Origin: a bacterium BMS3Abin14
GTDB taxonomy: Bacteria > BMS3Abin14
Length of the DNA: 64,000 nt
Direction of reading: 5' to 3'
NCBI GenBank assembly: GCA_002897695.1
Contig: BDTG01000019.1
Coordinates: forward strand, 1-64,000
Shown here: positions 37,628 through 61,512 of the stretch, piece after piece
Layout of the letters: each line of letters starts with the position of its first letter
Position numbering within the stretch: position 1 is the first letter of the stretch
The notes under the pieces: model-generated
Seen by the model: the letters and a program-made list of their open reading frames with translations, nothing else
What the model was told of the DNA's origin: nothing
The model's database searches: none
Program-made: the position numbers and the translations under genes

Positions 37628-38641
37628 TTACTGAGCGCCTGCAGTGGTGGTGCGGTGATAGGAACGGGGTTTATGGCAGCCAACAATGCACCTGCCGCCG
37701 TCTTTCAGCGGGGTGTAGTTAAGTGAATACATGGATATACCGTTTCTTGAATAATTACTGATCAGATTGAACTCCTGGGTAGATCCGTGAGGATCGTGGC
37801 ACATGGAACATGACCTCGCCTTTTCCCTTTTCACGATTCCGTACTTGTTCGGCACCAATGCCCCGACTACATGAACATTGTGAAGGTTTTTTTTGCCGTC
37901 CCTGAACCCGGTGGATTCGGCTTGCCCCGTTACCAGCGCGACATCATGACAGTCAAAGCACAGAGCGTACATCTTCTCGGAAAACCCTTTGGGGTATGGT
38001 TTGGTCTCGTACTCATCCTTCAACAGCTTTGGCCTGTTGCCGGCGTGAGGGAAATGGCAGTCGGTGCAGTCTCCATCGGAAAGAGCCGTATGAAGGACAC
38101 TGTCATTCATGTTCGGGACATCGTGGCACTCTGCGCACAGGGCTGGTGGATTTTCCACCAGAAGGTGGTCATTTTTTGACGAGTGGGGGTCGTGGCAGTC
38201 CGTACAGCCGCCATCCATCGCCGCCTCGTGGACAACGGGACCGTCCAGCTTGTCGTCATGGCAATCCAGACAGAGGTTCTTCGGCGACTCCACCAGAAGA
38301 TTTTTATTGACCGAACTGTGGGGGTTGTGACAATCGAGGCACCCGTCATCCTCAATTATTGGATGGACCTTGCCCTTATCCGCCGGATCATCGTGACACT
38401 GCAGGCAAAGGGCTTCCCCTTCCTCCACCAGAACAAGCTTTCCGTCGTCGCCGTGATCGTCGTGGCACGAGGAACAGTCATCCTCAGCGAAGGGCGGATG
38501 GACAACCGGCCGGGACTTGGCAGCAGAAAGCCAGTCGGAATGACACTCCGAGCATTCACCCCGGGCAACAGCCAGGGAGGGAATTACCGTAATTGTCAGA
38601 AGGACCAACGCTGTGAAAAAGAAGAATTTAATATGGCGCAC
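37628..38641 (-). CDS. Periplasmic multihaem cytochrome c with ten CXXCH plus one CX3CH motif
   Basis: A 337-aa exported cytochrome (signal FFFFTALVLLTITVIPSLAVA). I count ten CXXCH sites (CSECH, CSSCH, CLQCH, CLDCH twice, CTDCH twice, CAECH, CFDCH, CSMCH) and a C-terminal CIVGCH (CX3CH). The first eight lie in paired units of the type CLDCHNPHSS...LLVE...LCLDCHDD, the doubled-CXXCH domain. The GTG at 38641 has GAGGAG a few bases upstream; a TTG at 38653 overlaps that site. It is downstream of the 20-aa Cys-rich peptide gene on the same strand, about 155 bp away, so it could be part of the same transcript. Likely role: periplasmic electron transfer. Confidence 0.9.
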   Translation of the reverse strand: MRHIKFFFFTALVLLTITVIPSLAVARGECSECHSDWLSAAKSRPVVHPPFAEDDCSSCHDDHGDDGKLVLVEEGEALCLQCHDDPADKGKVHPIIEDDGCLDCHNPHSSVNKNLLVESPKNLCLDCHDDKLDGPVVHEAAMDGGCTDCHDPHSSKNDHLLVENPPALCAECHDVPNMNDSVLHTALSDGDCTDCHFPHAGNRPKLLKDEYETKPYPKGFSEKMYALCFDCHDVALVTGQAESTGFRDGKKNLHNVHVVGALVPNKYGIVKREKARSCSMCHDPHGSTQEFNLISNYSRNGISMYSLNYTPLKDGGRCIVGCHKPRSYHRTTTAGAQ

Positions 38642-38751
38642 GGGACTCCTCAATAATGCCTTTTCTTCCGCGAGCCCTCTTTACCAAAGAACATGAAATG
38701 CGTCAAGGTACATTTAGCCCCCCCCCATTAACACGATATCCATGCTACCAA

Positions 38752-38790
38752 GCCGGTTGAAATCGGAAAGGGCCGGCTCGAACCGGCTCC
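38752..38790 (-). repeat. GCCGG-rich stem-loop after the Cys-rich peptide gene
   Basis: On the transcript, GAGCCGGTT pairs with AACCGGCTT, and inside it GCCGG can also pair with CCGGC around TTCGAG. It starts about 10 nt after the peptide stop codon. There is no T tract, so it is more likely an mRNA-stabilising or partial-termination structure between peptide and cytochrome genes. Confidence 0.55.
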
Positions 38791-38795
38791 AAACC

Positions 38796-38858
38796 TCAGC
38801 AACTGGAGCAGCACTTGCACAATCCCCTGCTCTTTTTTGAGACCTTAATCAGCTTCAT
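38796..38858 (-). CDS. 20-residue Cys-rich peptide, probable radical SAM substrate (RiPP precursor candidate)
   Basis: The frame encodes MKLIKVSKKSRGLCKCCSSC: a basic N-terminal half and a C-terminal core with four cysteines (C14, C16, C17, C20). It is too short for ordinary gene calling, but the ATG is preceded by AAAGGAGGTGA at 8-nt spacing, about the strongest ribosome binding site in the window. It lies 87 bp after a radical SAM/SPASM gene on the same strand. Short Cys-rich peptides beside SPASM enzymes are the pattern of ribosomally made, post-translationally modified peptides (for example geopeptide-type pairs in Geobacter), where Cys residues are typically cross-linked. Whether this belongs to a named family I cannot tell. 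Confidence 0.7.
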   Translation of the reverse strand: MKLIKVSKKSRGLCKCCSSC

Positions 38859-38945
38859 GACCTTCACCTCCTTTCAGATCAGCATAACGCAATCTTCAAA
38901 CGGATGAACTTTCCAACAGCCAAGAGCGCTCAGGGTACCAGATAA

Positions 38946-40091
38946 TCACCATTTCTTCCAGTCCACTCCTCTTGCCAGACATTGAACGACATCCGGCCCC
39001 AAAGGTTCACCTGTCATCACCTCTGCCCGAAAGCGGCAGCCGCCGCCGCAATCCTCCAGCTGATCGCACCCGCACTGCAGGCCCGAAAGCGGCAGATGAT
39101 CTATCTTCATCCATGCGCCGGCAAGTCCCTCACGCACATACCCCACAGCGCGCTCCCTGTAAAAACCGCACTTGGCTGCCACTCCATCCGGAAAGACCGT
39201 CATAAGGTGTGCGCCGCAGGCCAGTCCGTCGGCGCCCCCATGGTATCCCCCCCCGAACCCAAAACGAAGCCTTTCGGCCATAGCCCGGAGAAAGGTCCCG
39301 TCCTTTTCCTCACCGCCGGCCCATCTACCGGAGCGGCATGGGATGTCGATGTTCCATTCAGTGATTCCCATATCGATGATGAAACGCGAGAGCCTTTTGA
39401 AATCGTTCATGTTGCCGCGGTGGACCATGGTAGCCACGGCAACGGGAACCCCCTCGCCCTGAAGGGCCTCGATACCCGCAACCACACGTCTGAATGACCC
39501 CTCGCCCCTCAATCGGTCATGGCCGCCTTCCATGCCGTCCAGGGAGATCTGCACCTGGTCGAACATTGCTAAATTTTCGGCCATCGCAGAGTTTATCTTT
39601 TCTCCGTGTGTCAGAAGAACAGTTCTCAGCAGCCGCCCTTCCAGTACTTCGAGGACTTCCTCAAACCTGGGGCTGCAAAGAGGTTCTCCACCGGAAACCA
39701 TGACCTTCAACCCCTGCATGAACTCGAATTCATGGAGAATATTCCCTATCTCGCCGGCGGACATATCCACAGGGGCAGCCGGGCCCAGATAGCAATGACG
39801 GCATCTCTTGTCGCATCGCCCCGTAATCTGAAGTTCCAGGTATCTCAGGGACGGCAGGGGGGAAGATCCCCCAACCCAGGCCGCAGTACGCCTTGCTTCA
39901 GTCTGAACGAGGCCTTCTTTTTCCAGAAGCGCCGCAGCCTCATCGTCCCTTGACTCCCCATCGGACATCGCCCTGATGCGGTCAAAGGACTCCCGGCTCA
40001 ACAGATATATATCATCCGTTTTTGAGTCATAGAGCGCCGGTTCCTCGATGTCTTTCAGAAAACAGCCGTCCTTGAGGTATGTGCGGATCAT
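38946..40091 (-). CDS. Radical SAM/SPASM peptide maturase with N-terminal RRE-like domain
   Basis: A 381-aa enzyme. Residues ~1-65 (MIRTYLKDGCFLKDIEEP, DDIYLLSRESFDRIRAM, AAALLEKEGLVQ) look like a PqqD-like peptide-recognition domain. The radical SAM core has the [4Fe-4S] motif GRCDKRCRHCYLG (CxxxCxxC), VMVSGGEP (SAM) and VQISLDG. The C-terminal SPASM part has CGAHLMTVFPDGVAAKCGF and LQCGCDQLEDCGGGC with a last Cys in VVQCLARG, enough for two auxiliary clusters. The ATG at 40091 has AAAGGTG at ~6-nt spacing; in-frame starts at 40130 and 40229 are weaker. It probably modifies the adjacent 20-aa peptide. Confidence 0.82.
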   Translation of the reverse strand: MIRTYLKDGCFLKDIEEPALYDSKTDDIYLLSRESFDRIRAMSDGESRDDEAAALLEKEGLVQTEARRTAAWVGGSSPLPSLRYLELQITGRCDKRCRHCYLGPAAPVDMSAGEIGNILHEFEFMQGLKVMVSGGEPLCSPRFEEVLEVLEGRLLRTVLLTHGEKINSAMAENLAMFDQVQISLDGMEGGHDRLRGEGSFRRVVAGIEALQGEGVPVAVATMVHRGNMNDFKRLSRFIIDMGITEWNIDIPCRSGRWAGGEEKDGTFLRAMAERLRFGFGGGYHGGADGLACGAHLMTVFPDGVAAKCGFYRERAVGYVREGLAGAWMKIDHLPLSGLQCGCDQLEDCGGGCRFRAEVMTGEPLGPDVVQCLARGVDWKKW

Positions 40092-40264: not shown

Positions 40265-40963
40265 ATGAGAATACTGCTCGTTGAAGATGATAAAAAGCTG
40301 TCCGGATATCTGAAAAAGGGCTTATTGGAGGAACAGTATGCCGTGGACATCTTCCATGATGGCATTGATGGCGCTTATTGGGCCAAAGAGATCAACTACG
40401 ATCTGATTATATTGGATATCATGCTTCCCCATAAAGACGGCATGACAATATGTAAAGAAATACGGCAGCAGGGAATAATCGTGCCGATTTTGATGCTTAC
40501 AGCAAAAGACGGCCTTGAGGACAGGGTGAAAGGACTTGATGCAGGCGCTGATGATTACCTGGCAAAACCGTTTTCCTTTGACGAACTCCTGGCAAGGGTT
40601 CGGGCTTTACTGCGTCGCTCCCAACAGTATCATAATCAGCAAAACGCCGGCACCCTGCGTGTCGCGGACCTGGAGCTTGACCCCATATCCCACACCGTCA
40701 TGCGTGCCGGCAAAAAAATCACCCTCACCGGCAAAGAATATGCCCTGCTGGAATATCTGATGAGAAATCCGGGAAAAATCGTCACCGAAACAAACATTTT
40801 TGACCATGTTTGGGACATGCAGGCAGAACCATTCACCAATGTGGTCAATGTGTATATTCACTATCTGCGCAACAAAGTAGACAAGGGGTTTGAGAAAAAA
40901 TTGATTTACACTGTTCGTTCCCTCGGATATGTGATGAAAGATGACAACGGTGATGATGATTAA
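40265..40963 (+). CDS. OmpR/PhoB-family response regulator
   Basis: A 232-aa two-domain regulator: receiver (MRILLVEDDKKLSGYL, acceptor Asp in LIILDIMLPHKDG, KPF) and a winged-helix output domain (DLELDPISHTVMRAGKKITLTGKEYALLEYL to YTVRSLGYVM). It resembles CusR/QseB/PmrA-type regulators. It is paired with the histidine kinase that follows and probably controls the exporter genes downstream. Base composition here is richer in A+T than in the flanks. Confidence 0.93.
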   Translation: MRILLVEDDKKLSGYLKKGLLEEQYAVDIFHDGIDGAYWAKEINYDLIILDIMLPHKDGMTICKEIRQQGIIVPILMLTAKDGLEDRVKGLDAGADDYLAKPFSFDELLARVRALLRRSQQYHNQQNAGTLRVADLELDPISHTVMRAGKKITLTGKEYALLEYLMRNPGKIVTETNIFDHVWDMQAEPFTNVVNVYIHYLRNKVDKGFEKKLIYTVRSLGYVMKDDNGDDD

Positions 40964-42423
40964 ATCCGTTCGGTTAAAACTTACGTTCTGGTATGTCGGG
41001 TCATTATGTTTTCTGCTGCTGCTCCTTGGACTCATTGTGTATTTCAGTCTTCAGGCTATTTTGACCGGAAATCTTGATAATGTGCTTCTTAATGGTGGAA
41101 AGATCTTTGAACAATCGTTCTCTGAGTATACGAAAGAGTTTCCAGGTGAACCCCGCAGTCTCTATACTATTGACAAAGGGAAAAAACATTATTTTGTCAA
41201 CACGATAGACGATGAGACAAAAGAGACCTTTTTTGTGAATACCGCGTATATACAACTCCTGGAATTCCCCCAAGCTGAAAAACGAACGTACTCCATGGTA
41301 GCAAGGACATCGTCCCTTAATAATCTGCTGCTGCCGCTTTCACCCAACGCCTATCAGGCCGTTGCTCGCCACACATCTTTTTACGAAACGATTCTCCGGC
41401 CGCTCCCTTTTCCGGTAAGAATGATCTCACTACCTGTATATGACAGGGACAATCGGCCGTATATTCTGCAGGTAGCCCTTTCGACACAACACATTGACAA
41501 CACGCTGGAGGGGCTATTATTTGTGTTCACCATGTTATTTCCAATTGTGCTGATTGTGACTGCGATTGCAGGGTATATTTTCATGAAACAGGCATTTTCT
41601 CCTGTTCGGCGCATGGTTTCCGTAACTCGTAAAATTACGTCGGAAGACCTGTCTCTCAGACTTGACTCGATTGACAGCCATGACGAAATTGGCGAACTGG
41701 CCGAAACATTTAATGCCATGATCGATCGTCTGGAACAGTCATTTCAACAAATTACCCAGTTTTCCGGCGATGTCTCCCACGAGCTAAGAACTCCTCTGGC
41801 GCAACTAAAGTGCAACGCGGATATCGCCTTGCGAAAACCGAGAACACCGGAAGGATATCAGCAGGTCCTGCACAATATAGTTGAAGATGCGGACCAACTT
41901 CAGAAAATCATAGGGGACCTGTTGTTTCTGGCCACAATGGATGTCAACAATTGTTCATCGTCGTTTGTGCCGGTCGCATTGCATGAGGTCTTTTTAGAGG
42001 TATTTGAAGCGATGCACGGGGTTGCTCGAAGGAAACACCTGACTTGCAGGTTCGAAGAGATGGACTTTGCCGAAATTATGGGTGACGGCAGTTTGCTGAA
42101 GAGGATGTTCACAAACCTGATATCCAATGCCATCAAATACACCCCCGCCGGAGGTGCGTATTACGTTTTCATTGCGTCAGGATGCAGGCGAATCTATCTT
42201 TACAATCTCAGATACCGGCATAGGTATCCCCGAGGAGGCGTTACCCTATATTTTCGATCGACTGTATCGGGTTGACCCTTCGCGCTCCCACGATACCGGC
42301 GGTTCCGGCCTTGGATTGGCAATTGTACGCAACATCATCGCTCTCCACCATGGGAAAATCTCGGCAGACAGTCCTCCCGGGCGTGGAACAACATTTCGTG
42401 TCTCATTTCCCCGTATCAGCTGA
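40953..42423 (+). pseudogene. Sensor histidine kinase, frameshifted in the ATPase domain
   Basis: The first part contains two membrane helices (FLLLLLGLIVYFSLQAIL and MLFPIVLIVTAIAGYIF) around a periplasmic domain, a HAMP domain and a dimerisation helix with the phospho-His (FSGDVSHELRTPLAQL). The frame is lost in LISNAIKYTP at a C5 run (42142-42146); removing one C gives NAIKYTPPEVRITFSLRQ and joins the rest of the ATPase domain (TISDTGIGIPEEALPYIFDRLYR, GGSGLGLAIVRNI). Without repair the kinase lacks its G boxes and should be inactive. A single-base homopolymer error in the assembly is a real alternative. Confidence 0.85.
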
Positions 42424-42469
42424 ATTGCAAACCCCCTCCTGAAGCTTTTTCCATTAGAGAATTCTAATC

Positions 42470-42506
42470 TTCCTTTAATGTTCGTTTAAGGTTCCCCCTG
42501 TATGCT
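42470..42506 (+). promoter_or_regulatory. Predicted response-regulator box and -10 element
   Basis: TTCCTTTAATG (42470-42480) and TTCGTTTAAGG (42481-42491) are direct repeats with 11-bp period, the spacing and TTTAA core typical of PmrA/QseB-type boxes. TATGCT follows at 42501-42506 as a possible -10. A box replacing the -35 would suit activation by the response regulator encoded at 40265. Confidence 0.5.
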
Positions 42507-42664
42507 TGTCTTGAAGTTGGAGATTTTCGTTCTTTTTAATCCGCAGGTAACGTTGCTCAGAACCGCTGCAACCCTGATAACGGGTCCAGTTTTGGGCAGG
42601 GGCCAATCCCGGGATCAATGTTCTTTGCCGCTGCATTGTTAACAGCAAATCGAGGAGAGCAGAT

Positions 42665-43309
42665 ATGTATCATTGTACGAGCAGAATGAACGCAACAATC
42701 ATAGTTACCGTAGTCCTGTTACTCATGCCTGGAATCAGTAATATATCGGCCTATGCAGGACAAGTAGATAGCGATGGTGACGGTATCTCGAATGTGGCGG
42801 AACAGATTCTGGGTACCAATCCGAAGAATCAGGATACGGATGGTGACGGCATTAACGATTTAAAGGATAAAACCCCCGTGTTCGCCAAGAACCCCATTGT
42901 CAATGCGGCTATGCGCAAGGGGTTTGAAATTGTAAATGCTATAGTGGAAAATAATTATGATCCCGCAGCGAAAAAGGACGCGAATGATCATTTGGAGATT
43001 ACGCTGAAAAATATTTCCGGCGCCGATTTGATCGGTTTTGAAGCCTATTGCACCATCAGGGACGTCGTTACAAAGAAGCAGGAAGGGTATTACGTTAAAT
43101 TACCGAACCTTGTTGTTAAAAAAAATAAGTCTGCCACGATTCATTTCGACAATACCAAAGGCCTGAATCACTTCGGTGAGAATGAAAACAGCATTTATCA
43201 CACCAGCAAGCACCCCAAGCTTTTTGAATTGACGATGAGTGTGCAGGAATATGCACCCGTGACGATTCAGATCAAGAAAGATGCGGGGGGTGTTGAACAG
43301 GCCGACTGA
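42665..43309 (+). CDS. Secreted protein with thrombospondin type 3-like Ca-binding repeats
   Basis: A 214-aa exported protein (signal IIVTVVLLLMPGISNISAYA). The mature N-terminus has two Asp-rich loops, DSDGDGISNVAEQILGTNP and DTDGDGINDLKDKTP, of the type that bind Ca2+. The rest is a beta-rich domain (ITLKNISGADLIGFEAYCTI, YVKLPNLVVKKNKSATIHF) reminiscent of immunoglobulin-like secreted domains. GAGGAG precedes the ATG. It follows the predicted regulator box after a ~155-nt leader and precedes the ABC exporter genes; perhaps an extracellular partner of that system. Confidence 0.75.
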   Translation: MYHCTSRMNATIIVTVVLLLMPGISNISAYAGQVDSDGDGISNVAEQILGTNPKNQDTDGDGINDLKDKTPVFAKNPIVNAAMRKGFEIVNAIVENNYDPAAKKDANDHLEITLKNISGADLIGFEAYCTIRDVVTKKQEGYYVKLPNLVVKKNKSATIHFDNTKGLNHFGENENSIYHTSKHPKLFELTMSVQEYAPVTIQIKKDAGGVEQAD

Positions 43310-43398
43310 TCAGTAACCGATGGAAGGAGCGCCAACGCAGAACATCGACAGTAAAGTTTCACGCCGGGATACTGAAACAATTATTTTCACGAATCCAC

Positions 43399-44158
43399 AT
43401 GGAAAACAGGACTGAAATTATGAGACGAGAGCACGATTTCATGATAGTGGCCGAAGGGCTAACCAAAAAATATAAAGAGTTTATTTCACTGGACGATTTG
43501 AATTTACAGGTGTCTCGTGGAGAAATTTTCGGGTTCCTCGGGCACAACGGAGCAGGAAAAACCACGACCGTGAATATCCTGACCACGCTGCTGTCTCCGA
43601 CGTCCGGAAGGGCATCGATCTGCGGATTTGATATCCAGGACGAGAGCAGACAGGTCAGGGAAAGAATCGACTACCTGCCGGAAAACGTCAAATTTTATGA
43701 AGACCTGACCGCCTTTGAAAATCTTGCATTTTTTTGCCAGGCTATCAGGCGTGAAAAATCCGGGGGAAAAAATCAGCGAGGTGTTGACCTTCCTGGATTT
43801 TCAGGGGATTGAAAACAAAAAACTCGGGGAATTCTCGAAGGGTATGCGCCAGCGTATCGGCATCGCTCAGGCAATCATCCATGACCCGGAGGTGCTGTTT
43901 CTGGATGAACCAACCTCCGGTCTTGATCCAAGGGGCATCAAGCATCTTCGAGAGGTGATTCTCCGACTCAACAGCGAAAAAGGGATGACAATCTTCATGA
44001 ATACCCATCTGCTGTCAGAGGTTGCCAGAACATGCACGACAATCGGCGTGCTCAGCCATGGGCGGTTGATCTATAAGGACTCATTGGAAAACACATTGGA
44101 TACGTTCAGGGACGAGGTGTCGCTGGAAACCATTTATCTTGAGAACCTGGCCGGATAG
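43399..44158 (+). pseudogene. ABC transporter ATP-binding protein, frameshifted
   Basis: An ABC-2-type ATPase: Walker A FLGHNGAGKTTTVNIL, signature EFSKGMRQRIGIAQA, Walker B VLFLDEPTSGLDPRG. The two halves are in different frames; removing one T from the T7 run (43729-43735) gives ENLAFFARLSGVKNPGEKI and restores one protein of about 250 aa. As read, the gene encodes a truncated product ending at 43812. All catalytic motifs survive on one side or the other, which suggests either a very recent mutation or a sequencing error. Confidence 0.85.
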
Positions 44159-44167
44159 GGAGACGTA

Positions 44168-45085
44168 ATGTTCCTCACAATACGTACAATTGCCGGGCAT
44201 GAATTCCTGGCGCTGCGGAGGCAAAAAACTTTTGCGCTGCTGTTATGTGTCTTTCTTGCGATGACATTGCTTTCAACCTACATCGGGTGGTCCACGAAAC
44301 ACACGATTCTCAGAATTTACGCCGCAACGGTTCAACGTATGGCAGCGGAAGGCATTACGGAGATTCCCGTAAATCCGTTCCTGATGACTCCTGCACTTTC
44401 GATTTTGAAAAACATGGTGATTTATATCCTGCTGATCGGATCGCTGTTGGCTATCATCGTTGGCCATAGTGCTTTTATCAGGGAACGAAGAGCCGGAGTA
44501 TCCAGAATCCTTTTTACGAAACCATTTGACCGCAGAGAATTCGTGTTGGGGAAAATGGGTGGAATGTTGCTCGTCTTGACGTCCGTCATGGCAGCTTCGT
44601 TTGTCATTAGCCTGTTTTCGGCGAGTCTGATTTCATCGCGCCTGTTGTCCTTTGCGGAAATTCTCAGGCTCTTTGCATTTTATGCAGTTTCACTGGAGTA
44701 TGTCGTTGTTTTTGCCATGCTTGGTTTTCTGTTCTCCATCACATCAAAGAGTGAATCACTGGCTCTTTTAAGTCCGGTGATAATCTGGATTTTTATCAGC
44801 TTTGTGATGCCGCAATTAAGTTCCGCTCTGGATCCAACAATGCTGCTGAATCCCACATCGATTCAGGCTGCGTTTCCACAAAGCCACTTTTTTACGACCA
44901 TCCGGGAAATTATCGCGCCATTTTCGATTTCAGAAAACTATACGTCCATGGGCCGAATGCTGCTTGAAGGAGGTAAGTATTCCTTTTCCCCCTGGTCATC
45001 GCTTGTATTCCTGGTTCTCCTGGTGATTGGCTGTGTTTATGCCCTCAGAAGTTTTAATGTGTGTGAAGAGGAGGTCACTGAGTAA
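44168..45085 (+). CDS. ABC-2 type transporter permease (first)
   Basis: A 305-aa membrane protein with about six helices: FALLLCVFLAMTLLSTYIGW first, then a large loop, ILKNMVIYILLIGSLLAIIVGHSAF, and further helices to the C-terminus. ABC-2 permeases export lipids, peptides or polysaccharides; the substrate is not evident. It begins 9 bp after the ATPase stop and lies 4 bp before the second permease. Confidence 0.85.
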   Translation: MFLTIRTIAGHEFLALRRQKTFALLLCVFLAMTLLSTYIGWSTKHTILRIYAATVQRMAAEGITEIPVNPFLMTPALSILKNMVIYILLIGSLLAIIVGHSAFIRERRAGVSRILFTKPFDRREFVLGKMGGMLLVLTSVMAASFVISLFSASLISSRLLSFAEILRLFAFYAVSLEYVVVFAMLGFLFSITSKSESLALLSPVIIWIFISFVMPQLSSALDPTMLLNPTSIQAAFPQSHFFTTIREIIAPFSISENYTSMGRMLLEGGKYSFSPWSSLVFLVLLVIGCVYALRSFNVCEEEVTE

Positions 45086-45089
45086 TATC

Positions 45090-46247
45090 ATGCAAAACAT
45101 GCTTATCATCGCCTTAAAAGATTATCGTGATTCCAGGAAAAATCGGCTTTTTTTTGTTTTGCTGGGCTTTTTGCTGCTCCTTACCATTACTTCGATCGTG
45201 CTGGCATCCTTTGATTTCCGCAACAAGCTCGCCGAGTACAATCAGGCCTTGCAGGTTCTCAAAAACCTCGGAAAGGTGCCAGACACATCCACACCACAGT
45301 TTTTTCCCTTAAAGATGCTACGGGGTGTGGTAGATTACCTTGAGATCATCGGTGCCATCCTTGGTATCATCCTGGGCTACCTCAGTATAGCCAAAGAAAA
45401 GGGGAAAAACACGCTCCAGCTTCTCTTGAGCAGGCCGATTGGCCAATATGATATCGTTTCAGGAAAGGTTCTCGGCAACAGTGCTCTTATCCTTTCTGTC
45501 CTGGCCGTCAATGCTTTGGCTTTGTATCTGATCCTGTGGTTTGTCGGAGGGGTACAATTTTCTACAGCAGAGCTCGTCAAGCTCGGATTGGTTTTTGTGG
45601 CATCCTATTTTTATATCATGTTCTTTTTCTGCCTGACATCGATTCTGGCTCTCAAACTGAAGTCTCTCCCGAATGCCCTGATTATCGGTTTTACCATCTG
45701 GCTTGCCTTCGTGTTAATCATTCCGCAAATCGGGGATACCATGGACCCTGACAATCAGATTCCAGGCGGATTTTTCAAGAGCATGAAAATGAACCATGAC
45801 CAGGGAAAAGAAATTCTGAAAAAATTCAAAACCTACGAAACCGTCAGAAATACTATCGAGGAAACATCGATCACAAAACATTATGAACGCTTGAGCTTTG
45901 CCCTGCTGGGGATAAAAGATTATTACAATAATAAAACGCTTGGCTTTATTTTTCACGATAAATGGTTTGATGGGGTGTGGGTCGCGGGATTTTTTCTGCT
46001 TGCACTGCTGGCAGAATATCTCGTTCTCGCCAGAAAAGAGCATATTTTACACAACGGATCGAGCAGAGACAGCCCCGGAACGATTGAATCTGTCATTTTA
46101 CTATGCATTATTGATTTAATCGCAGCCAAACCGGGTGATTCCGATCATAGCCGCAGGACGGCAGGACAGTTTGGTCCAATTCTCCCTGACAAAAAATATA
46201 TGGCGTCGGCGCTCGTGGCATGTCCTTCTCACAGAAAGGTTGCGTGA
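45090..46247 (+). CDS. ABC-2 type transporter permease (second), C-terminal tail probably replaced
   Basis: A 385-aa membrane protein (MQNMLIIALKDYRDSRKNRL; helices LFFVLLGFLLLLTITSIVLA, IIGAILGIILGYLSIA, ILVLSVLAVNALALYLIL and others). The family-like part ends around LLALLAEYLVLARKEH (46040). The following ~70 residues (GSSRDSPGTIESVILLCI onward) do not look like a membrane protein or match the rest in composition, so the native stop is probably lost at the junction with flanking DNA. GAGGAGG precedes the ATG by ~15 nt. Confidence 0.75.
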   Translation: MQNMLIIALKDYRDSRKNRLFFVLLGFLLLLTITSIVLASFDFRNKLAEYNQALQVLKNLGKVPDTSTPQFFPLKMLRGVVDYLEIIGAILGIILGYLSIAKEKGKNTLQLLLSRPIGQYDIVSGKVLGNSALILSVLAVNALALYLILWFVGGVQFSTAELVKLGLVFVASYFYIMFFFCLTSILALKLKSLPNALIIGFTIWLAFVLIIPQIGDTMDPDNQIPGGFFKSMKMNHDQGKEILKKFKTYETVRNTIEETSITKHYERLSFALLGIKDYYNNKTLGFIFHDKWFDGVWVAGFFLLALLAEYLVLARKEHILHNGSSRDSPGTIESVILLCIIDLIAAKPGDSDHSRRTAGQFGPILPDKKYMASALVACPSHRKVA

Positions 46248-47998: not shown

Positions 47999-49000
47999 TT
48001 ACTTCTTCAATGAAGACAGAATCTCCAGCGCCTTGCCGTTGGCATCATTAAGCAGGGACATGAGGAATTTGCGGTTATGGAAACCGCCGCTTTCATCTGA
48101 CTCGGCATAGCTCAGATTACTTTGAGCCTCATCGAGCTTGGCCTTTAATCCTTTGTCATTTCGGCCCGCCATGACCTTCCCGGCAGCTGCAACATTTTTC
48201 CCGGTGGTGGCATCGAGGGTCCGGAAGCTTGATTTCCATACATCTATGATCGCTTTGGCGGTGGCGCCATCTATGGTTTCGTGGCATTGGGTACATGATG
48301 TTGAGCTTTTTCCATTCGCCTCATTTACCGTAATACTGAACTTATGTCCATGGAACATGGCCGAGTTGCTGCCGTCCACACCGCTGTTATACATATGACA
48401 ATCGGTGCAGGTAACATCCGGCATCGTCTGCTGGTCAGGCACCCCGATACCCCCCTTACCGTTCAGGATATTGTAACTGAGGTGGTCGGTGCCCGGGAAG
48501 CGCAGGCTGCCGTGACACTGCCCGCAAAGTTCCGCAGAGCTTTTCGTCACCACATATTTTCCGGTGGATGAGTTAAAGTACGAACGGGCAGCAGGGTTAT
48601 GCGGGTCGTGGCAGGCGATACAGGAAACGCTTGGCCACTCATCCGTGTGTGCGGTTTTGGTATCTTTAGTGAACCTGCCGTCTTTTGTAGTGAAGAAGTA
48701 TTGCAGCGCCTTCGCCTCGGTCATTCCGCCGTTCGCCAGCACCGACGTGGGGCCGTGGCAGGCGATGCAGTCCTCAGCATCCTCCCCGTGGATCACATCT
48801 CCGGGGGTCTGTCCCACACGTTCTTCGGACAACTCACCGGCGACATCCGCCTGTGTCCGGGAATGGGGGCCGGTAGCCCATTCGGCAACAATGTCTCCGT
48901 ACCGTGAGGGCTGTGAAGCTGCCGTTGCATTGTTCATACTCAGGAAAAAAAAGATCCCTGCCATTGCCACCAATCCTGCGATAAGGCCCTTCTTGTGCAT
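47999..49000 (-). CDS. Periplasmic pentahaem cytochrome c, nitrite-reductase (c552)-like fold
   Basis: A 333-aa exported cytochrome (signal LIAGLVAMAGIFFFLSMNNATA) with five CXXCH sites: CIACH (twice), CGQCH, CTDCH and CTQCH. The order, the MPDVTCTDCHM...FHGHKFSI segment and the helical C-terminus ending GGFHNRKFLMSLLNDA resemble NrfA-type cytochrome c552. NrfA itself has CXXCK at its catalytic haem; here the first motif is a normal CXXCH, so nitrite reduction is not assured. ATG 49000 has GGAG 9 nt upstream. Upstream at 49104-49123 lies TTGTG-N10-CACAA, a possible operator. Confidence 0.88.
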   Translation of the reverse strand: MHKKGLIAGLVAMAGIFFFLSMNNATAASQPSRYGDIVAEWATGPHSRTQADVAGELSEERVGQTPGDVIHGEDAEDCIACHGPTSVLANGGMTEAKALQYFFTTKDGRFTKDTKTAHTDEWPSVSCIACHDPHNPAARSYFNSSTGKYVVTKSSAELCGQCHGSLRFPGTDHLSYNILNGKGGIGVPDQQTMPDVTCTDCHMYNSGVDGSNSAMFHGHKFSITVNEANGKSSTSCTQCHETIDGATAKAIIDVWKSSFRTLDATTGKNVAAAGKVMAGRNDKGLKAKLDEAQSNLSYAESDESGGFHNRKFLMSLLNDANGKALEILSSLKK

Positions 49001-49103
49001 TTCAACCATCTCCTTTCATGAACCTTGGGGGAAACCCTTTCTGCTCTTTAATGTGTCCATTTTCCATGAACATTTTTACTATTATATCATAGAATTACGT
49101 GAT

Positions 49104-60387: not shown

Positions 60388-61512
60388 ATGGAGGAAAGAA
60401 TCTTGACAGAGGCGAAACAGCGGACAAGACAGGGCAGAATTTTCGAGCCAAAATGGCTCGCGTGGGAAATTACCGGCAGATGCAACCTGAACTGCATCCA
60501 TTGCCGTTCCTCGTCCACCATGGGTTCGGGCCAGGGAGACTTTTCTCTGGAAGAGGCAAGATCCCTCATTGACGAGATAACCTCTTTTGCAAAACCGGTG
60601 GTTGTCCTTTCCGGCGGTGAGCCGCTGCTGCGTAAGGACGTGTTCGAGATCGCTTCCTACGGTACCTCCAAGGGGCTGCGCATGGCGCTTGCCACCAACG
60701 GGGTCCTCGTAGATGATGAGGTGTGCGATAAGATCAAGCAGTCCGGAATCCGGATTGTTTCCCTCAGCCTGGACGGTTCAAATGCCGGGATTCATGACGA
60801 CTTCCGCCACCAGGAGGGCGCCTTTGAGGCAACCTTGCGGGCGTCGGATTACCTGAAGAAAAACGGCATTGAGTTTCTTGTCAATTCATCCTTCACCAAG
60901 CGGAACCAGACCGATATCCCCAACGTCTACCGGCTGGCCAAAAAGATCGGGGCCGTGGCATGGTACATGTTCATGATAGTGCCCATGGGAAGGGGCGAGG
61001 AGCTCATGGCCGAGCTTATCTCCAGGGAGGATTACGACGATATCCTCAAGTGGCACTTTGACATGGAGCTGCAGGAAACCGAGATGCTTGTGCGCCCGAC
61101 CTGCGCTCCCCATTACTACCGCGTTATCCAGCAGGAGGCCAAGGCGAAAGGGATCGATTTTAACCGACGCAACCTCAAATTCGGGACGGGCGGCGCAAAG
61201 GGATGCATCGCCGCCCAGTCAATCGCCTTTATCGGCAGCAAGGGCGACGTACAGCCATGCAGCTATTTTCCCCAGTCAGCCGGCAACGTACGTGAAAAAA
61301 GCTTCCGTAAGATCTGGGAAGATTCGGCCCTCTTTAACGACATCCGGAGCTTCAAGGATTACAAGGGCCGCTGCGGATCCTGCGAATACCTGGGGGTCTG
61401 CGGCGGGTGCAGGGCCCGGGCGCTGGCCGTATCCGGTGACTACATGGACGAGGAGCCCTTCTGCAGCTACATACCCAAAAAAATTGCCCGTCAGATGGCG
61501 GACAACAGGTAA
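60388..61512 (+). CDS. Radical SAM/SPASM protein of the haem cluster (AhbC/AhbD/NirJ-like)
   Basis: A 374-aa enzyme: [4Fe-4S] motif [16 protein letters not shown] (CxxxCxxC), SAM motif [15 protein letters not shown], and a SPASM region with [23 protein letters not shown] and [20 protein letters not shown], then PFCSYIPKK. Relatives decarboxylate porphyrin side chains in the sirohaem-dependent haem and haem d1 pathways. It is immediately upstream (19 bp) of hemE, hemH and hemY, genes of the classical route, so it may replace the missing coproporphyrinogen oxidase step or do something unrelated. ATG with AAGGG upstream. Confidence 0.85.

Follow-up and report, generated by a model that had tools for sequence, protein, structure and literature searches.

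Enzyme-peptide pairs of the radical SAM/SPASM superfamily usually come without hints of their function. In the GeoRSP/geopeptide and SynChlorMet cassettes, a SPASM enzyme accompanies a short peptide in environmental anaerobes. The PqqA/PqqE and MftA/MftC pairs each comprise a very short peptide and one SPASM enzyme, while the SkfB and SuiB maturases (6efn and 5v1q/5v1t) join an N-terminal peptide-recognition domain to a radical SAM core and SPASM clusters, with a short peptide substrate gene nearby. The locus described here shares this architecture with SkfB and SuiB, but is unlike them (14-18% sequence identity) in having no exporter and a single 20-aa substrate that carries a fixed CKCxxxC tail and is often unlinked to its enzyme. 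Although the kind of system, a SPASM enzyme with a short peptide, is already known, the present family is new to Pfam, NCBIfam and the open-access literature searched: the peptide matches no model in either database, and searches by its motif and for radical SAM and copper peptides found no description of it. The peptide and maturase in the window (the whole stretch of DNA that was analysed, 64,000 nucleotides) are an instance of a still unnamed pair, very probably of enzyme and substrate, that occurs in five or more bacterial phyla. The relevant features are these:

37628-38653 (or from a GTG at ~38638), minus strand: multihaem cytochrome gene with 10 CXXCH motifs and one CX3CH
38796-38858, minus strand: peptide gene, 20 aa, MKLIKVSKKSRGLCKCCSSC* (translation of the window)
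38864-38874, minus strand: Shine-Dalgarno sequence of the peptide gene, AAAGGAGGTGA, with GGAGG 8 nt from the ATG
38946-40091, minus strand: radical SAM/SPASM peptide maturase, 381 aa, ATG at 40091 with AAAGGTG upstream
38979-39218, minus strand: SPASM set of seven cysteines for auxiliary clusters (57-homologue alignment)
39792-39815, minus strand: CX3CX2C motif of the radical SAM core (CDKRCRHC), invariant in 57 homologues
39897-40088, minus strand: predicted PqqD-like RRE (peptide-recognition) domain at the maturase N-terminus, three strands then helices (AlphaFold model, Foldseek)

The maturase passes the Pfam Radical_SAM model (PF04055; 67.5 bits against a cut-off of 29.5), and its SPASM cysteines, at alignment positions 291, 307, 339, 341, 347, 351 and 370, are invariant or nearly so among the 57 homologues. 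In an AlphaFold model (57 homologues; mean pLDDT 94), the N-terminus adopts an EEEHH arrangement (E9-13, E17-21, E26-29, H32-42, H49-57) that looks like a PqqD-like peptide-binding domain; this is recognised by fold only, as the Pfam PqqD model gave no match to the maturase. In a Foldseek search of the PDB, SkfB and SuiB occupied ranks 1-6, and the best folds comprised SkfB, SuiB (also in its precursor-peptide-bound form), TigE, anSME and PqqE. Both the model and the fold search back the earlier note, which had proposed a SPASM maturase carrying a PqqD-like domain and paired with a short Cys-rich peptide. The same note had likened the pair to the geopeptide type, a comparison that is not borne out: the GeoRSP model TIGR04303 scores 60.8 bits against a cut-off of 400, and even the best NCBIfam score, that of ScmE from SynChlorMet (TIGR04250), is 96.5 against 400. 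All NCBIfam equivalog cut-offs lie far above the scores of the maturase. Furthermore, unlike the GeoRSP/geopeptide and SynChlorMet cassettes, the locus has no second SPASM protein. A further radical SAM gene, present in the window at 60451-60990 on the plus strand, shows 27% identity to the maturase in the core region.

The 63-bp peptide gene begins 87 bp after the maturase stop codon, and its coordinates, this gap and the strong Shine-Dalgarno sequence were all verified as the earlier note had given them. Four cysteines within the last seven residues occur in no other frame of the window, and the genome carries a single copy of the peptide. Compared with the copy in a genome of the same genus (G001), the gene shows five synonymous codon changes and one conservative change (dN 0.02, dS 0.65), whereas identity in the 60-bp flanks drops to 57%; by this codon comparison, the peptide is under purifying selection. 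Two other roles or origins were considered. A leader-peptide or attenuator function was rejected, being at odds with the absence of any same-strand gene close behind the peptide in relatives and of a terminator or unusual RNA fold 3' of it (fold z-score +1.7), and a plasmid origin looks unlikely, as plasmid matches are to distant radical SAM proteins only.

A single-sequence scan of genome contigs for relatives gave no match. An alignment-based scan yielded 290 maturase relatives, the best 80 of which were fetched and belong to the Nitrospirota, Desulfobacterota (including Syntrophaceae), Actinomycetota, Clostridia and Spirochaetes; a similar peptide accompanies them in each of these groups. 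Among the 64 peptide copies collected near these best 80 relatives, C14, K15, C16 and C20 are present in all 64 and S19 in 61, C20 is the exact last residue in all but one, and most are preceded by a strong Shine-Dalgarno sequence. Length is conserved as well, at 20 aa (range 19-21). Representative sequences are MKLIKIRKESKGLCKCCSSC, MKLVKVKKESRGLCKCASSC and MKIRKIAKSASITCKCKSSC (G005, G009 and G053, respectively, the last from another phylum). Position 17 is usually Lys. The window peptide is the ordinary, maturase-linked (K-type) form with a Cys17 variant and ends in CKCxSSC; thus, the four C-terminal cysteines previously emphasised are present, but only three are family features, Cys17 being special to the window's lineage. 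A 19-residue form, MI[KR]KVSGKAMPTCKCK[SN]SC, occurs with a strong Shine-Dalgarno sequence at L273, L274 and L275, in genomes where the maturase is unlinked. In Desulfobacterota and Spirochaetes, a Cys-rich protein of ~120 aa (CRPYCxFF...CxG; no Pfam match) lies between peptide and maturase (L058:5586-5954, with similar genes in L024, L042, L043, L075, L088, L089 and L091), and the ORF that follows the peptide at L026, L049 and L051 has ~505-513 aa, a length that permits a fusion of this protein with the maturase.

One of the key features of the pair is its co-inheritance. Across 396 genomes of one phylum (Nitrospirota, that of locus L035), 104 encode both peptide and maturase, 8 the peptide only, 11 the maturase only and 273 neither (Fisher p ~5e-72, a value that overstates independence, since the genomes are kin by descent). 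Some of the peptide-only and maturase-only genomes arise from short variants and draft assemblies; for example, G275 encodes a 19-residue peptide below threshold and was hence scored as an exception. Genomes of the window's family that lack the maturase also lack the peptide, and where the maturase has no adjacent peptide, a copy was found elsewhere in G002, G003 and 12 of the 14 such genomes reached through loci. Maturase loci devoid of a short Cys-rich frame had been named as the observation that would count against the pairing; instead, most have the frame alongside, and nearly all others have it at another site in the genome. A cognate precursor gene co-inherited with its maturase thus joins the CX3CX2C motif, the SPASM cysteines and the fold-predicted recognition domain as features of a radical SAM/SPASM RiPP system, and the peptide and maturase very probably form an enzyme-substrate pair. 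With its recurrence next to most maturase homologues or else within their genomes, its uniqueness in the window and its codon conservation, the frame is more than chance. Conceivably, the peptide could act unmodified as a metallothionein-like thiol peptide while the maturase serves another substrate, given that CKCxSSC resembles metal-thiolate motifs and that some copies described below lie far from any maturase. However, the tight co-occurrence of the two genes and the predicted peptide-binding domain of the enzyme make this very unlikely.

The multihaem cytochrome gene, which the earlier note had placed next to the peptide and linked to it through electron transfer, is indeed its neighbour in the window, on the same strand, but in relatives other genes intervene. 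There, the genes of the window's own family run in the order HflX, maturase, peptide, a response-regulator/PilZ gene on the opposite strand, an ExbB-like gene, cytochrome and EngB; the window lacks the response-regulator/PilZ and ExbB-like genes, so that peptide and cytochrome become adjacent, and only in the window are they immediate neighbours. In G002 and G003, the peptide is elsewhere in the genome. That the peptide is a partner of the cytochrome is a reading with very little probability: a cytochrome does lie a few kb away in same-family relatives and a small cytochrome c gene follows two unlinked copies in Nitrospirota, but in other phyla no cytochrome was found near the maturase, and CXXCH motifs occur in 2 of 89 adjacent downstream genes, which is background (2.2% of all ORFs). 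The proposed cytochrome or electron-transfer link is not supported; it is confined to the window's own family, and a general link to cytochromes was rejected. Several other local arrangements were encountered. An unlinked K-type peptide lies directly upstream of a small c-type cytochrome at L136 and L140 (also L133), and at L136 and L140 the peptide is in turn preceded by Tat translocase genes and two conserved but unassigned proteins. Beyond HflX, the window encodes another protein of the multihaem cytochrome type, at 47999-49009 on the minus strand, which has a longer relative in G001 (L011:2084-3574). Between maturase and HflX, a plus-strand block at 40265-46247 is absent from G001; it encodes a response regulator (heavy-metal type, TIGR01387, 272 against 279 bits), a sensor kinase, a TSP3 protein, an ABC ATPase and permeases, with the kinase (near 42127-42275) and ABC ATPase (near 43715-43812) appearing frameshifted.

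In Nitrospirota, the genome often encodes a further peptide in which position 17 is His (CKCHxSC). This His-type pattern occurs at 36 sites in 34 of the 396 genomes, against 0 in a reversed control; its matches at L221 and L230 are false, due to chance, and that at L202 is a frameshifted copy. The genomic setting of the two forms is distinct. Within the fetched stretches, 30 of 35 His-type loci have copper features, including a CopA-like ATPase in 25, a YHS domain in 21, a Met-rich protein in 23 and a multicopper oxidase in 3 ("YHS" and "Met-rich" being motif definitions made for the present analysis), and none of the 35 contains the maturase. In a comparison set of 40 K-type loci taken from the best-scoring K-type matches, the maturase is present in 33 and any copper feature in 2. 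When similar loci are collapsed, 12 of 15 His-type clusters retain copper features and 3 have no copper gene. The ATPase adjoining the His-type peptide has YHS and heavy-metal-binding domains; at L141 it passes the copper-translocating P-type ATPase model TIGR01511 (608 against 397 bits) as well as, with a lower score, a cadmium-family model (404 against 313.5). The oxidase at L130 passes Pfam multicopper oxidase domains and falls under the copper_res_A cut-off (425 against 479 bits). In a Desulfobacterota sample, the His-type peptide was found in 1 of 326 genomes, where it adjoins its maturase outside a copper operon. Two loci, L215 (G442:C205) and L209 (G303:C89), each have two His-type genes on one contig, no more than ~2 kb from one another.

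The His-type copies in copper-resistance operons suggest, as far as gene neighbourhoods can indicate, that the modified peptide may handle metal ions. The earlier view of the product as metal-related and not an antibiotic is favoured by these paralogues, with the qualification that the copper evidence comes from a paralogue and not from the window's own type. We consider the case for a metal-binding product to be evenly balanced. The genes next to K-type peptides vary from lineage to lineage (OFOR, SOD, ferritin-like proteins, NifS/IscU), and so it is rather doubtful that the copy in the window would bind copper. Bufferin systems would be the nearest functional analogue, as they too employ a Cys-rich modified-peptide strategy in copper stress. 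Bufferins are MNIO-modified, copper-binding RiPPs with Sec-exported precursors (PMC12452194); unlike them, the present family has a radical SAM/SPASM enzyme, not MNIO (DUF692), no DUF2063 partner was seen, and the 20-aa precursor is too short for a Sec signal peptide.

Based upon these features, a mechanism can be proposed. Firstly, the PqqD-like domain would bind the peptide by its basic N-terminal half (M[KT]I[KR]KVxK). Secondly, the radical SAM and auxiliary SPASM clusters would modify the invariant C-terminal Cys-Lys-Cys-x-x-(Ser)-Cys tail, with thioether cross-links, or oxidation or decarboxylation at the always-terminal Cys, being the likeliest reactions. Thirdly, since no exporter, protease or immunity gene is conserved beside the peptide, the product probably stays in the cell, where we infer that it would serve as a short metal-thiolate peptide. 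In Nitrospirota, the His-type copy (CKCHxSC) may have been recruited to copper-export operons, presumably relying on the same enzyme for maturation in trans. As a reasonably probable account, the locus would be a RiPP-like cassette of two genes from an unnamed family, whose maturase modifies the peptide to give an unexported metal-thiolate product.

Two other products have to be weighed against a metal-thiolate peptide. As with PqqA or MftA, the peptide could be the scaffold of a redox cofactor, a small electron-transfer molecule that the maturase would make together with unlinked enzymes. The similar peptide length, the one dedicated SPASM enzyme, the strict C-terminal residue, as in mycofactocin chemistry, and the redox enzymes that neighbour the peptide in some lineages (OFOR, SOD, ferritin-like) would all fit such a scaffold; yet the locus, unlike PqqA/PqqE and MftA/MftC, has no cofactor genes alongside, downstream biosynthetic genes are not conserved, the maturase scores far below the cut-offs of the mycofactocin (74 against 265 bits) and PqqE (47 against 381 bits) models, and a His-type copy in copper operons would be unexpected. 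We regard this explanation as unlikely. Still less probable, and indeed very unlikely, is a secreted antimicrobial sactipeptide or ranthipeptide, as might be envisaged from the resemblance of the maturase fold to SkfB, its closest match, and from the Cys-rich tail of the peptide, for a transporter, protease or immunity gene is not conserved, products of an arms race would not be expected to stay almost unchanged across phyla as this peptide does, and copies reside in copper operons.

The metal-thiolate reading can be extended, albeit tentatively and with less confidence than the cassette itself, to a class of 20-mer metal-thiolate peptides matured by radical SAM enzymes across phyla, whose His-type paralogue would serve copper-export operons and which might be viewed as an intracellular radical SAM counterpart of bufferins. 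The 20-residue substrate recurs almost unchanged among mostly anaerobic bacteria of several phyla, and its paralogues in copper operons provide a first testable hypothesis, namely that the modified Cys peptide binds Cu(I). If true, radical SAM chemistry, besides MNIO chemistry, would be used to build copper-handling peptides.
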